This document shows, one piece after another, positions 14,878 through 63,564 of a DNA stretch of 64,000 nt (the stretch's first letter is position 1; every line of letters begins with the position of its first letter). Source of the DNA: Cunninghamella blakesleeana (taxonomy: Eukaryota > Mucoromycota > Mucoromycetes > Mucorales > Cunninghamellaceae); the NCBI GenBank assembly GCA_017871115.1, contig JAFCIZ010000006.1, forward strand, positions 3,100,001 through 3,164,000, in the 5' to 3' direction. The translations under genes and the position numbers were made by a program. Below the pieces are notes generated by a model. That model was given only the letters and a program-made list of their open reading frames with translations, was not told where the DNA came from and ran no database searches.

Positions 14878-17800
14878 ATGACCAGTTATATCAAATTTAC
14901 ACCTCTTTCTGGTGCAAAAAATGAAAACGCGTTATGTTATTTATTAGAAATAGATGAAGTTAAAATTTTACTTGACTGTGGTTGGAATGATCAATTCGAA
15001 CTTCAAGATTTATCCTCTTTAAAAAAGTAAAGCAACAGTAATAATAATAGTAATAATAATATTATTAGTAATAGTAATAGTAATAATTTATAGATATAAT
15101 ACAAATTGAAAACTTTGATAAAAAACAATATATCAATTCAACTTTATATATTTATATATTTTATTCTTGTTTTATAGAATAGCCAAACAAATCGATGTAG
15201 TATTGCTATCTCACTCTGATCTACCACATCTTGGAGCTTATCCTTACGCAAAAGGTCAACTTGGTTTACAATGTCCAGTTTATTCAACTGTACCTGTAGT
15301 TAATATGGGAAAGATGTGTATGTATGATATATATCAGAGTAAAGCCAACGAAATGGAATTTACAGCCTTTTCACTGGAAGATGTTGATAATGCCTTTGAT
15401 AAAATTACCTCACTTCGTTATTCTCAACCTTTCTCACTTCCCGGAAAGTGTCAAGGTATAACTATTACTGCTTATGCTGCTGCCCACACTGTTGGTGGTA
15501 CTATTTGGAAAATTAAACAAGATACAAATGATATTATTTATGCAGTTGATTATAATCATAGAAAAGAAAAGTATGATATATAATAATAAGAGTAATATTT
15601 TATGTAAAAAAGAAACGATTCTTTTATATTAATATAAATTTTATTTATTTATTTATAAATTAGCCATTTAGATGGCACAATTCTTTTATCGGATGGTGTT
15701 GCATTAGATTCCTTGGCTCGTCCTTCATTATTAATTACTGGCGCCTTAAATGCCGAAATTCCTAGTAGAGATAGATACACCGAAATGTTTGGTAATGCAT
15801 ATATATATATATATATATACTTTATTATTTATTTTGTTTTATTTTATTGTATTTTATTGTATTAATTATTGTATATGTTTGAATATATTTTAGATACCAT
15901 AAATAAAACATTAACAAAAGGTGGATCAGTTCTTCTTCCTTCAGATTCAGCAGCTCGTGTTTTGGAACTTTGTTATGTATTAGATCAATATTGGACAAAA
16001 CATCAACTGAATTATCCTTTAATTATGCTCAGTAATACTAGTTATCACACCATACATTTTGCAAAGGTCATGTTAGAATGGATGGGGACGGATTTAACAA
16101 AGCATTTTTCACAGACTCGTGAAAATCCATTTGAATTCAAATACCTACGGTTATTCCATAAATTAGAAGACTTAGAACAATACCCAGGACCAAAAGTAGT
16201 GATTGCAAGTAATTATAGTTTAGAAACAGGTTTTGCAAGGGATTTATTTATAAAATGGATGACAATACCAATGAATAAAGATGATAATGATGATGATGAT
16301 CCATTATTTGTGAAAAATACCTTATTGCTCACAGAACGCGCACAACCTGGTTCTTTAGCTAGACAAATGTATGATCAATGGGAAGTGGAAGCTACTAATT
16401 TAATAACACAAAAAGAAGACACAACGCAATCAACAGGAAAAAATAAGAAAGCTATTATAAAACCAGGCATTGATTATAATACAGAGATGGATTTAACCTT
16501 ATTTCAACGTGTACCATTGGAAGGAGAAGAACTACAAGCCTTTGAAGCTGCTCAACGTGCTAAAGCCGAAAGAGAAGCAGCTCAAGCTGCTATGATTGCT
16601 CGTAATAAAACCATTATGGAAGATGAGTCTGATAGTTCAGATTTAGATGAAGCAGACGATCCTATGGAAGATTTATTAGCCAATCAACATGATTTATATG
16701 TACGTGATAGTGGCCGTTCTGGAGGTTTTTTTAAGCAAGCTCAAAGCTATCATATGTTTCCTTATCATGAAAAAAGAAAAAAAATTGACGATTATGGGGA
16801 AGCCATTCAACAAGAACATTTTATGTTGGCAACTGATTTAACAAGAATATTAGAAAGTAAACAATCCTCTTCCTCCTCTACACATGAGCTTGGGGCTAAT
16901 TTTGGTAATGGCAGTGCTTTGGATCAACATGGGAAAAGGGAAAACAACAATGATGATATGATACAAATGGATATAGATGAACCTTTATTAAATGCTCGTG
17001 ATAAAACACCAACAAAATATATTTCTAATAGTCAACATGTACAAGTACAATGCTATTTAAGATACATTGATTTAGAAGGTTTATCTGATAACATCTCTAT
17101 AAAAAATATTTTATCACAGATTGCACCAAGAAAAATGGTAAGAATGAAAAATAATAATAATAGAAATCAATTAATCTACACATTTATATATAAAAATATG
17201 AAGAATTATCCTAAAAACTAATTACTATTCTTTTTATTATTTTATTAAATATATAGATTCTCATTCATGGTCAAGAAGAAGCAACTAAAAATTTGGCTTT
17301 AGCATGTTCATCAATGAATCACTTTACAAAAGAAATATTTACACCTAATATCGGAGAAGTACTTAATGTATCATCAGCAACAAATATTTATCAAGTTCGA
17401 TTGACAGATGGTTTAGTAAATACATTACAGTTTTCAAAATTAGGCGATCATGAATTAGCAAGAGTATCAGGGCGTATTCATTTTAGAGATGATTCCACCA
17501 CACCTTCTTTGGATATTATCGATAATATGAATGAAGTACAGAAAAAGAAAATACAACCAACCATCTTGGTTGGTGATACAAGATTGACAGAATTCAAGCG
17601 AATATTACAAGGGGAAGGCATTTCTGCTGAATTTAAAGGTGAAGGAATGTTAGTATGTAATGATCATGTTGTTGTTAGAAAAGTAAGTCCTTTTAATTAT
17701 TATTATTATCATACATATATATATATATATATATATTATTCGAAAGACTAATATTTTTTTTTTCTTTTTTTTTTCTTTATGTTTAGTCTGGTATTGGGCA

Positions 17801-58135: not shown

Positions 58136-58549
58136 AAAATTATTCATTTAATTTATTTTTTTAAATATAATAACTAAATATAAAAATTTGATAACATTTG
58201 TATTAGTGCGAATAAGTAAAATTGGCACCAACGTCTGTCAGATGTGTATTCCATTTTAGAGTAGTATTTAGTTTTAAAAACAAGTATAAAAAATAAAATA
58301 TAGAATAATAAAAGGATAAAATAAAATAAAATTCAAAAATAAAAACAACCTTATACAAAGATGATTAAAGAAGTATATTAAACAAGGTAAAGCAATATTA
58401 TGCAGAGATGATCGAAAAGTATATTAAATAAAAACAAGTATATTTATGCTAAAAATAAAAACATCTAATACAAATGCAATAAAATAAAAGCATCTAAAAC
58501 TAAGAGGTAAAAATTAAAGAATAAAATATAACTCCAACCCCCTTATCTT

Positions 58550-58740
58550 CAAGCTGGCCTTTATATAGCTTTGAGGACCATGGTCAGAAATGATATGGAT
58601 GAACTTCCAGAATAATTCGATATGATACCTAGGATTACGAGCGATATTTAAAATATTGGTCCAGTTTAGGAAGATATTCGGACTTTGTATATTTTCTATT
58701 TTTGGAATTGTCGATTTAAAACTCCTTTTTTCTTTACTTT
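58550..58740 (-). repeat. Inverted partial copy of the 58989-59354 ORF (C-terminal half)
   Basis: The reverse complement aligns with 59150-59345: shared CTTCCTAAACTGG, ATTCCAAAAA, CAAAGTCCGAA and AGCTATATAAAGGCCA. The translated frame stays open through the whole match (FLNWTNILNIARNPRYH versus FLNWSKVLSAARNPGHH), with a one-codon length difference. This suggests a divergent copy that was once coding. Confidence 0.7.
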
Positions 58741-58988
58741 TTGTCCCTTCATTATATTCAATTGTAAATTTAATAATTTAATCTTTTTTAATATTAAAAA
58801 AATTAGTGCCTTCAACTTTTAATAATAGACTTACCATTAACTCAGTATATCAATCCATTTTAATACATTTTCATTACTTAAAACATCATATTTATATTAT
58901 TAACTATTTTATTTCGATCATATCTGTCGGCAATAAAATAACTAGTAATAGTAAGGACGATGCTTTCAAGGAATTAGAAAGCACTAAA

Positions 58989-59354
58989 ATGGATGAAGAC
59001 AATGATGACAATAACAATATTATTATTGAGGAAGAAAATAATGATTTATTTAAAAATAATAATATTACAAAAGATTCAATTAGTAAATCTACAACTAAAA
59101 ATAATGAAGAAATAAAAAATAAAAATATGGAGTTAGAAAGAGAAGAAAGGAAAAGAAAGAGGAGTTTCAAACCAACGATTCCAAAAAACAGGAAGAAATC
59201 CAAAGTCCGAAGAACCTTCCTAAACTGGTCCAAGGTTTTAAGCGCCGCTCGTAACCCCGGGCACCATGCCGTGTTGTTCTGGAAATTCCTCTCGGCGACC
59301 CACAAACGCCAAACCAAAAACTATATAAAGGCCAACTCGAAGGCAGAAAAATAA
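58989..59354 (+). CDS. Basic ORF of unknown function with repeated copies nearby (possible mobile-element protein)
   Basis: 121 aa from the ATG at 58989; the frame is open further upstream to 58806, where an intron or UTR is possible. The N-terminal part is Asp/Asn/Glu-rich; the middle is strongly basic (REERKRKRSFK, PKNRKKSKVRR). The C-terminal ~45 residues are compact and GC-richer: FLNWSKVLSAARNPGHH, then AVLFWKFLSATHKRQTKNY. Parts of it are duplicated in direct (58049-58135) and inverted (58550-58740) orientation. I do not recognise the family; the repeats suggest a mobile-element or multicopy protein, with a nucleic-acid-binding role guessed only from charge. Confidence 0.45.
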   Translation: MDEDNDDNNNIIIEEENNDLFKNNNITKDSISKSTTKNNEEIKNKNMELEREERKRKRSFKPTIPKNRKKSKVRRTFLNWSKVLSAARNPGHHAVLFWKFLSATHKRQTKNYIKANSKAEK

Positions 59355-59403
59355 AAGAGATACTCTTCCTCTCAAGCTTAGTTTTAGATACTTTTATTTT
59401 TTT

Positions 59404-59580
59404 GTCTTTGCGTTAGACATTTATTATTCTTTGCGTAAGAATATTTATTTTTTATAAAAATCATATACTTTTTAATCACCTTTGCGTAAGGTTGTTTTTA
59501 TATATTTTACTTACCTTGATCACCTTTGCGTAAGGTTGTTTTATTACTTTCTTTTACTCTTTATTATCTTTGCGTAAGAT
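59404..59580 (+). repeat. Five mini-hairpins with invariant TGCGT loop and covarying stems
   Basis: Each has a TGCGT loop closed by an inverted repeat: 59404-59418 (GTCT/AGAC), 59425-59443 (TATTCTT/AAGAATA), 59478-59492 and 59522-59536 (ACCTT/AAGGT), and 59566-59580 (ATCTT/AAGAT). Stem bases change on both sides while pairing is kept. The last three are spaced exactly 44 bp apart. The array lies 50-230 bp after the stop of the 59354 ORF and 115 bp before the tRNA. Confidence 0.8.
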
Positions 59581-59694
59581 TCTTTCTTTTATTTTATTTA
59601 TTTTTATTCTTTTATTTTATTTTATAATAATTGTATCTAAGCTAAATAAACTATTCTAATTAAAACGGAAACCGCGCTCGACATATCAGCAACA

Positions 59695-59768
59695 GCTTCT
59701 ATGGCGCAATTGGCTAGCGCGTTTGACTGTTAATCAAGAGGTTGGTGGTTCGAGCCCACCTAGGAGCG
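59695..59768 (+). tRNA. tRNA-Asn (anticodon GUU)
   Basis: 74-nt cloverleaf, no intron. Acceptor stem GCTTCTA pairs with TAGGAGC (one T-G wobble), D stem GCGC/GCGC, anticodon stem TTTGA/TCAAG with loop CTGTTAA (anticodon GTT), T arm GGTGG-TTCGAGC-CCACC, discriminator G. Box B GGTTCGAGCCC is intact. A T-run at 59769-59781 serves as the Pol III terminator. Confidence 0.97.
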
Positions 59769-59781
59769 TTTCTTTTTTTTT
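59769..59781 (+). terminator. Pol III T-tract terminator of tRNA-Asn
   Basis: TTTC followed by nine T directly after the tRNA 3' end. Confidence 0.85.
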
Positions 59782-60793
59782 CGCTCCTTTAAGAAAAGTC
59801 CGGATCGGACAATGCTGAACACGTAGTGTTATGTGGTGTTGTGTGGGTTTTTGTTTAAGATTTATTTTTTTTAAATGAGGAATGAGTATTATAAGTAATA
59901 TTTGATATGTATAATATAATTCCAGTGAGCACCAGTTCCTGTTTTATAAGTAGAACGACTTAATATAAAGGAATAAAAAAATAAAATAAAATAAAGTAAA
60001 AATAAAGAAATAAAAAATATAAAAATTTTAAAAGGTGTAATATAATTACAGGATTAAAGAGAGATTTCAGTAACCGCAATGTAAAATAAATATAATAAGA
60101 AAATTTAAAAAGTAATTTAAATTTGAGTTGTTGAAAAATATTTAAGTAAATAAATTGTTATGTGGGTTTTTGGTTAAGATTTATTTTTGAAATGAGGAAT
60201 GAGTATTATAAGTTATATTTGGAGTATATAATAAGTTTCCAGTGAGCACCAGTTCCTGTTTTATAAGTAGAACGACTTAATATAAAGGAATAGAAAATTA
60301 AAAAAAATAAAATAAAATAAAAAAAATAAAAGAAAATAAAATAAAGATTATAAGTAAAATATAAGCAGGATTAAAGCAAAAGTTTAATGACCGCCGAGTA
60401 AAATAAGTAGTAAAGAGTTTAAATGATTTAGATCAGTAGTATAGAATATTTAAGTGAATAAATATTATAAAATAAGATAGTATATAATAATATAAAATAT
60501 TATAAAGTAAAAATAAAATAAAAATAAAATAATTTGTTAAATAAAAAATAGATAAGTTCAATAATTGAATATGTTATAGTAAGTTAAAATAAAAAAATTT
60601 AAAATTATAAAGTTTATTTTATAAAGTGGACAAGTTCAATAATTATTTAGTAGATAATAATTTATTATAAAAATTTGACAATTTAAGAGAAAGAAAGAGA
60701 AAAAAATTGGTTCTATTTATATTTAAAAAAAAATTAAAAAAATTATTTAAAGTATATTGAGAGTAGGGAAAAGATATGGAAGTGACTTTCATA

Positions 60794-60838
60794 TTGAACA
60801 ACGGTGCAGTGAACATTGGTTCAGTGAACAACGGTTCA
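60794..60838 (+). repeat. 15-bp minisatellite, three units
   Basis: Three units of the type GTGAACAACGGTTCA, with few substitutions, follow block D of the first repeat module. Confidence 0.8.
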
Positions 60839-61147
60839 AAAAAGCAGTGACCAATTTCAAAGAGCGCCATTGGTATCACCATTGTCGACAAAATATAAAA
60901 ATATAAAATATAATAATATAGTTTGTTATAAAAAAAATAGATAAATTCAGTAATTTGAATAAGTTATAAGTAAAATAAGTTAAAATTATAAAATATGATT
61001 TATAAAGTGGACAAGTTCAATAATTATTTAATAGATAATAATTTATTATAAAAATTTGACAATTTAAAAGAAAGAAAGAGAGAAAAATTGGTTCTATTTA
61101 TATTTAAAAAAAAATTAAAATTTATAAGGATCGGGTAAGGAACAAAA

Positions 61148-61234
61148 GCACCTTGGTGTTTTTGTACCTTTGGTGTTTTTGCACCTTTGGTGTTTTTGCA
61201 CCTTGGTGTTTTTGCACCTTGGTGTTTTTGCACC
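61148..61234 (+). repeat. 15/16-bp minisatellite, about five units, each a small hairpin
   Basis: TTGGTGTTTTTGCACC repeats about five times. Each unit contains the self-complementary GGTG/CACC. It sits in the same place relative to block D as the minisatellites at 60794 and 62077. Confidence 0.9.
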
Positions 61235-62076
61235 AGTAGCACAAAGCCAATCCAAAAAAGGAAAGAAAAATCAGAGAGCGTTATTGCTAACAGTGGATTT
61301 TTTGGTCAAGGTTTATTTTCTTGAAATGAGGAATGAGTATTATGTTATATTTGGAGTATATAATAAATTTCCAGTGAGCAACCAGTTCTTGTTTTAAAAT
61401 AAAAAAATAATTTAATCACCGCTAAACTCGTCTGCTTGGACTACAAAAGAAATAAAAAAATTAAAAAAGTATAATATAATTGCAGGGTTCAAGTGTTGTG
61501 TGTGTTTTTGGTAAGAGTTATTTTTGTTAAAATAAAATATGAGAGTTTGTATTTATATTAATTATAAATAAGATAATTCCAGTGAGCACCAGTTCTTGTT
61601 TTGTAAGTAGAACGACTTAATATAATGTAAAAGTAAAAAAAGTAAAAAGATAAAATAAAATAAAAATATTTAAAAAAAATTCAAAAGTATATGCAAATGA
61701 ATTTAAAAGTCAGAGTGGATTATTATATAAAAAGAGTAATAATCAAATAAAGTAATAATAAAATTTAAAATAAAATATAAAAAGTTTATATATGTTATAT
61801 ATAAATAAAAATAGAGATTTCACTTAAGAAATAAAAATATATCTGTTATAGTAATAAATATGATTTCAATTAAGAAATTAGTATAAAATTAAAATAAAAT
61901 AAAAATAGAAATTGGTTTGGACAAATAAAATATTTATTATATAAAATATTATTTAAAAATTTGACATTTATATTTGACAAAGAAAAAAAAAAACAAAAGA
62001 GAAAGAAAAATATTCTTTCCTATTTATATTAAAACAAAATTTATTTTAGAGAGAGAGAAAGAAGTCATACGGTCAA

Positions 62077-62140
62077 GGATGTGCGGTTGTGGATGTACAT
62101 CTGTGGATGTGCGTCTGTGGATGTGCGGTTGTGGATGTGA
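62077..62140 (+). repeat. 14-bp minisatellite, about 4.5 units
   Basis: Units of GGATGTGCGGTTGT with variants GGATGTACATCTGT and GGATGTGCGTCTGT. A Cys-rich frame across it is an artefact of the repeat. Confidence 0.9.
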
Positions 62141-63564
62141 GCTTGACCAATTAAAACAAAAATTTAAAAAACTTTTTAAACACCGGTAGGATCATTATCC
62201 TGCGCGACACAAGTAAGATTTCAGTAACCACAAAGTAAAATAAAGAGGATAGTATAAAAATTTAAAAGTAACTTAAATCAAAATTGTTTAAAAATATTTA
62301 AGTAAATAAATATAAAAATATAAGATAAAATAAAATTATAAAATGTGTTTTATAAAGTGGACAAGTTTAGTAGTTATTTAGCAAGTATATGATTTATTAT
62401 AAAAATTTGACAATTTTAAAGGAAAGAAAAAGAGATAAATTGGCTCTATTTATATTAAAAAAAAAATTAAAAAAATTTATGAGAATGAGGGCAGATAAAA
62501 TAAAGTGTACTGAAATCGTTAAAAAGATCTAAATTACGATAGTTTGATTCAGTAGTAAACCAAAATAAAAGGATAAAACTGTGGAATAAAATAATAAAAT
62601 ATAGTTTGTAAAATGAGTCCAATAGATGTTAGAAAACTTGATATCGGAAAGAGCTCGATTTTTATTAAAATTAAAATTCTATGAAGATTTTTATAAGGTG
62701 TTGGAATTTGGAAAATGATTAAACGTGAAAAATAACTTTTTGTTTTTTATATCTTCCCAAAACCAACACAAAAGTTTGTAGCCATGGCACCGGAGTTATG
62801 GCGCCAATAACACAAAATCAGACCAAAAAAGGAAAAAAAGAAGAAAAACCCAAAGAGCATTACTAGCAGTAGTGTTGTGAATGTTTTTAATGAGTTGTTT
62901 TTGTTAAAATAAATAATAAGACTTTGTATTTACATTTATAATAAATATGAGAATTTTAGTGAGTATCAGTTCCTGTTTCAGAATTAGAACGATTTAACGT
63001 AAGACAAAAGTAAAAATAAAAAGTAAAAAAAATAAAGTATTTAAAAAATTCAAAAGTATATGCAGATTATTATATAAAAGGGGTAATAATTAAATATAAA
63101 AGTTTATATATATTGTATATAAATAAAATAAAAATGATTTCACCTAAGAAATAAATTATGTTTGCTGTAATAATAAATTAAAATAAAATGATTTCAATTA
63201 AGAAATTAAAAAGATAAAAAAATGGTTTGGACAAATATAATATACATTATATAAGTTATTATTTATAAATCTGACACTGACATTTGACAAAGAAAAGAAA
63301 AAAAAAAGAAAAGATATTCTATCCTATTTACATTAAAATAAAAATTTTTTTTTAGGAAGATAAAGAGGAAAAAAGAATGTGGAAATTTGGTTGTGAAAAA
63401 AAAAATAATCACCACCAACTTTATCGACTTAATCGACATTAGTTTAAATAAATAAAGTAAAATAAAGAATGTGATTATAAAAATAATAGTTTATTGAATT
63501 TTTAGTAAGCGTTTTATTTACTAGATTAAAATACATTACTTCGCTTATTTAATATTGTTACTTT

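Follow-up and report, generated by a model that had tools for sequence, protein, structure and literature searches.

A hairpin array inside the LTR of a tRNA-targeted Ty3/gypsy retrotransposon of Cunninghamella blakesleeana: a candidate RNA domain in R

An array of five short hairpins at 59404..59580 of the window (the whole 64,000-nucleotide stretch of C. blakesleeana DNA that was analysed) is an internal piece of the 759-bp LTR of a Ty3/gypsy retrotransposon. This LTR (58925..59683, plus strand, TGTCGG...CGACA) is a solo copy flanked by the target-site duplication TATC (58921..58924 on the left and 59684..59687 on the right, recognized by comparing the flanks of insertions), and its end lies 11 bp from the 5' end of a tRNA-Asn(GTT) gene (59695..59768, plus strand), the integration target. 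The element is of a known kind, the tRNA-targeted Ty3/gypsy LTR retrotransposons, in which the hairpin array in R and the LTR-encoded integrase tail are unusual. From sequence comparisons and predicted folds we lean, without great confidence, towards the view that the array is a selected, structured RNA domain in the R region of the element's genomic RNA.

An LTR search recovered at least 10 LTRs with 99-100% identity and the same termini throughout, derived from nine insertions (eight solo and one full-length), as well as one truncated copy (L041) and older copies; these copy counts are lower bounds. A 4-bp direct repeat is present at all nine intact insertions (TATC, GATT at three sites, CTTC, ATGT, AGAC, and AAAA at two sites of low complexity). 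Eight of these are solo LTRs, since a single LTR lies between the direct repeats. The exact sequence CTTTGCGTAAG occurs at 43 sites in the 31.9-Mb assembly versus 2 for the reversed control, which is beyond chance, and all 43 group into 11 clusters, each of them inside an LTR copy; ten of the clusters contain four sites, and the one in the diverged copy L040 contains three. The bare 8-mer TTGCGTAA shows no enrichment (440 in the assembly versus 498 for its control), so its occurrences outside LTRs are background. Most copies that we compared are dead and decaying. One older decayed LTR of the same lineage, found in the LTR search at 58282..58913 on the minus strand (65% identity, with array remnants), adjoins the young LTR upstream at the same tRNA-Asn locus.

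The full-length copy (C2:1855391-1866467) has two identical LTRs with TG...CA ends, a primer-binding-like TTGGTAGCTGAACC and a polypurine tract. We assign it to Ty3/gypsy because Pfam detects Gag/capsid, RT and integrase domains (rve and Integrase_H2C2) along with a protease match below the cut-off. No RNase H was found in the frames scanned of this F1 copy; a sister element, L049, encodes Gag, protease, RT-RNase H and integrase in that order in a single frame. Pfam detected no chromodomain, a chromovirus feature, at the integrase C-terminus of either the full-length copy or L049. The full-length element (L033, L034) is interrupted by Tc-type DDE and helix-turn-helix transposase frames, one of which splits RT. 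Named relatives of the integrase come from Rhizopus, Mucor, Lichtheimia, Absidia, Circinella and Choanephora, among others, and no relative was confirmed in the viral contig and genome contig collections.

At nine of the ten young sites, with truncated L041 counted, the LTR, inserted in either orientation, has its start or its end 10-12 bp ahead of the 5' end of a tRNA gene, and nine isotypes are found at the nine sites (Lys, Met, Gly, Leu, Gln, Val, Ser, Asn and Asp). The exception is L035, for which the nearest such tRNA is 1082 bp off. Around the older copy L040 there is no tRNA closer than 1.4 kb. In two sister elements, whose integrases are 69% identical, the end lies 10 and 12 bp ahead of tRNA-Thr and tRNA-Ala. 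A third family, L051 (52%), departs from the pattern, with a tRNA-Trp on its other side. Position-specific insertion upstream of tRNA genes is Ty3-like targeting. The original prediction placed the array between a repeated ORF and a tRNA gene, and this placement is right, except that the tRNA gene is an integration target outside of the element and the ORF is not a gene of its own. The sister element L049 (C1:7210391-7216855) sits between an old F1-type LTR (L042) and tRNA-Thr, as if insertions had been stacked successively at one tRNA gene.

Ty3/gypsy elements targeted to Pol III genes include Ty3, Tj1, DGLT-A, Beta/Tca8 and Ylt1/Tyl3/Tyl6, as presented in PMC5911963 (including its Table 1), PMC4600332 and PMC5006619. 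The duplication is 4 bp here and 5 bp in Tj1 according to PMC4600332. Compared with Ty3 and the other Pol III-targeted elements, the present one differs in that its integrase tail crosses the polypurine tract into the LTR, in that its R carries a hairpin array, and in its Mucorales-type host. By one Ras-GEF protein of the host, the closest fungus is Cunninghamella echinulata (89% identity over 89% of the query). The word "Mucor" is absent from the main text of two of the papers on tRNA targeting (PMC5911963, PMC5006619). A search of the open-access literature, which is not all of print and has PMC11105155, PMC5604411 and PMC7928374 outside its scope, turned up neither an account of tRNA-targeted Ty3 elements from Mucorales nor one of a hairpin array in R.

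The integrase core of the full-length copy belongs to a 568-aa frame that crosses the polypurine tract, enters the 3' LTR and ends at the equivalent of 59354. The ORF at 58989-59354 is therefore the LTR-encoded C-terminal tail of integrase (58925..59354, plus strand, with rve and Integrase_H2C2 upstream in the frame) and not a separate gene. The expectation that hairpins cluster after copies of this ORF was borne out, because both are inside one LTR. Sister L049 has the same integrase-into-LTR arrangement with a shorter tail. The two frames that extend into the 3' LTR in this way are L034:4221-5927 and L049:1800-6437; both contain a basic KRxFKP motif, which Mucorales relatives have as well. 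Proteins of these relatives have ...GRTxSxKGGNV..., which in F1 marks the polypurine-LTR junction, and then KRxFKP. Using our own patterns on the relatives' protein sequences, we found both motifs in this order in 19 of 227 retrotransposon proteins among the matches listed, and in 19 of the 53, likewise among the matches listed, that keep at least 100 residues past an HxDRL-like motif. Changes between F1 and L040 or L042 are distributed over the three codon positions as 16/14/22 and 18/12/28, respectively, and this third-position excess is a modest sign of coding constraint in the tail. Pfam returned nothing up to E 1 for the 121 LTR-encoded residues. The integrase tail with its KRxFKP motif is a candidate to act in targeting or in nuclear entry.

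Re-reading the sequence gave the array the same coordinates as in the original prediction, and its five mini-hairpins with compensatory stem changes proved real once the count of the core was corrected. That count had been five in 177 bp; exact TTGCGTAA is present in four units (at 59431, 59482, 59526 and 59570) while the first unit reads TTGCGTTA. One further TTGCGTAA site in the window is at 15244 on the minus strand. The hairpins, all on the plus strand, are H1 (59403..59419, TGTCT-TTGCGTT-AGACA, identified by fold energy and unit alignment), H2 (59425..59443, TATTCTT-TGCGT-AAGAATA) and H3 (59478..59492, ACCTT-TGCGT-AAGGT), both identified by fold energy and RNAalifold, H4 (59522..59536, the same sequence as H3 44 bp downstream, identified by fold energy, RNAalifold and tandem period) and H5 (59566..59580, ATCTT-TGCGT-AAGAT, identified by fold energy). 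Counting outward from the loop, stem position 1 is a T-T mismatch in H1, position 4 is T-A in H1, H2 and H5 and C-G in H3 and H4, position 5 is G-C, T-A or A-T, and position 6 is paired in H1 and H2 only, as had been described for positions 4 to 6. The 19 bases compared show no difference between H3 and H4, so these are not independent units; they are part of a 44-bp tandem period, and copies 3 and 4 are a single duplication.

Among the LTRs examined the array was seen in one lineage alone; of the sister elements examined, the two closest (integrase 69% identical) are without it. An Rfam search of 58900-59800 with E up to 1 brought the tRNA alone to its gathering score. A scan of IMG/VR for the 16-mer CACCTTTGCGTAAGGT gave single matches in 8 contigs, which we take to be chance.

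Upstream of the array is a TATA-box-like CTATATAAAG (59321..59330, plus strand), a putative promoter element whose TATATAA core is kept in the six diverged copies with aligned sequence covering the site; in L048old TATATAA is present outside the aligned part. Downstream is AATAAA (59645..59650, plus strand), a likely poly(A) signal. Because the array lies between the conserved TATA box and AATAAA, R probably spans it, and the genomic RNA would then contain the hairpins twice, once in its 5' leader and once close to its 3' end. The original suggestion of RNA hairpins in a 3'UTR came close, as the array follows the integrase stop in the 3' LTR. Of the 21 G residues of the array 18 are inside hairpins, and ATG is absent from R of F1 and L040, as in a leader (P 0.06-0.13 only); older copies have 1-3 ATG in R. 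Folded RNA in R beside AAUAAA, at both RNA ends, is familiar from HIV TAR, the HIV poly(A) hairpin and HTLV R. The likeness to these retroviral structures, for which we claim no homology, is a predicted fold in R beside AAUAAA, whereas the present element has a set of mini-hairpins that are nearly identical to one another and are probably closed off by a single helix.

We aligned nine R regions, two from young and seven from older copies. RNAalifold returned H2, H3, H4 and a long-range helix that closes the array, with compensatory change at 4 of 28 pairs, all in hairpins, and an unfavourable overall covariation term (+1.14). In the named structure (38 pairs in nine copies) 89.5% of cells are paired versus 36.6-46.1% with partners slid, and 8 cells are changed on both sides versus 3.7 +/- 1.4 in shuffles (1/500). 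Two of five measures do not separate from shuffles, these being the pairs with a double change (5 versus 3.1, 55/500) and further pair types (106/500). We also compared 30 distinct units from the nine LTR copies (45 slots minus 7 empty, 7 duplicates and 1 with a shortened loop, H3 of L036b, in which all five pairs form by eye). Here 81.3% of cells are paired versus 69.3 +/- 2.1 shuffled, 20 cells are changed on both sides versus 6.1 +/- 2.2, and the covariation score is 0.437 versus 0.183 (0/500 in each case). The score drops to 0.157 or less when the partner is slid, a control that we prefer because related rows can beat the shuffles. Pairs with a double change show no excess (4 versus 2.8, 102/500). 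The earlier claim that it is the dyad, and not the sequence itself, that persists agrees with the pairing in the nine copies and the covariation across units; covarying stems are found, with these caveats, for H2-H5 and not for H1 or the enclosing helix.

The single hairpins are weak, with fold energies of -1.7 to -4.5 kcal/mol, and three of them differ from shuffles by no more than 1.5 sd. For the whole of R, the plus strand of the window copy folds with z -2.82 (2/100) and the minus strand with z -1.76; the values are -3.83 (0/200) for L040 and -1.05 for L044, the latter no better than shuffles. A strand comparison of mismatch types gave G-U versus A-C as 19 to 12 (p 0.28), too small an excess to favor one strand. 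The R of the one sister folded, L049, is ordinary (z -0.56), and as the sisters are also without the array, a structured R is not needed by all relatives. The predicted enclosing helix has its 5' side at 59375..59391 (AGCTTAG...TAGATAC) and its 3' side, GTATCTAAGCT, at 59633..59643, both on the plus strand, so that AATAAA begins one base past it. It is 88.7% paired and H1 82.2%, neither with a pair changed on both sides. Pairing and energy support the helix, with registers that shift between copies, and its lack of a compensatory pair lowers our confidence in the RNA-domain reading. The ten young LTRs do not differ at any hairpin base; one of their differences, at LTR position 715 of L037, changes a U-A pair of the enclosing helix to U-G.

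If the array is an RNA domain, the enclosing helix, with its 5' side near the RNA 5' end, would enclose a stretch of U-rich linkers with four or five short hairpins, each of which displays a (U/C)GCGU loop. Such a multi-hairpin domain could bind a protein several times over. The likeliest partner would be Gag/nucleocapsid, because most of the array's G residues are in hairpins and UTR or POL sequences are required for Ty3 packaging, and binding would select genomic RNA for packaging or aid strand transfer through R. We propose this Gag-binding role in particular only tentatively, and consider it doubtful that the arrangement serves multivalent Gag docking, with identical-loop hairpins in a closed R domain evolving by duplication and compensatory stem change. 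In the parts of PMC4974528 and PMC11381356 that deal with Ty3 packaging, the UTRs contribute, UTR or POL sequences are needed and the precise signals are undefined; their accounts of the cis-acting regions of Ty3 genomic RNA describe no repeated hairpin array. With Ty3-type signals this imprecisely defined, a repeated-loop domain would be an easy substrate for probing them, and an odd array would become a defined and testable RNA domain of a Ty3 lineage that targets tRNA genes in early-diverging fungi. We also considered kissing contacts from one UGCGU loop to another and dropped the idea, as the loop is not self-complementary.

The array might instead work as DNA. The core TTGCGTAA, which we take to be a pseudo-palindromic bZIP/C/EBP-like site, would then be bound by a protein, and the array would be a transcribed enhancer of the LTR promoter. 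Besides the resemblance of the core to such sites, LTRs of another Ty3 family in the window carry short tandem arrays, one of them made of dyads, upstream of a TATA box. Our array is downstream of its TATA box, however, and H1 keeps its stem without a palindromic core. Furthermore, bases of the outer arms change while their pairing is retained, a pattern for which a protein that reads bases would have no need. We judge an enhancer function rather unlikely.

We give equally little credence to a functionless minisatellite, in which the dyads would be kept by duplication and by template switching within hairpins at reverse transcription, both arms being changed together. Turnover of this sort fits the recent H3/H4 duplication, the varying number of units (F1 and L044 have five, L040 and L042 have four) and the sisters without an array. 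Against it, paired sites differ less than unpaired sites in each of the seven older copies compared (summed, 77/460 versus 290/1172), and U-G stands beside both Watson-Crick forms at three hairpin pairs, suggesting stepwise change.

An independent family of mobile mini-hairpins, as originally proposed, is very improbable and was rejected at the sensitivity used: dispersed copies do exist, but every exact 11-mer in the assembly is inside an LTR copy, unit spacing is identical across the ten young LTRs, and a covariance-model search (E up to 1, 258 kb) placed 64 of 64 matches in LTR arrays and none outside LTRs.

The other Ty3 family in the window is represented by an LTR at 61494-62209 on the minus strand, with TG...CA ends and the 4-bp duplication CAAG, and by a related stretch at 60700-61300. 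In three related LTR stretches a TATAAATAG box, read on the strand of the element, is preceded by a short tandem array that differs from one stretch to the next (60795-60838, 61148-61234 and 62077-62139); the second array is made of CACC-TT-GGTG dyads. The differing arrays of this family look like turnover of U3 enhancer repeats.
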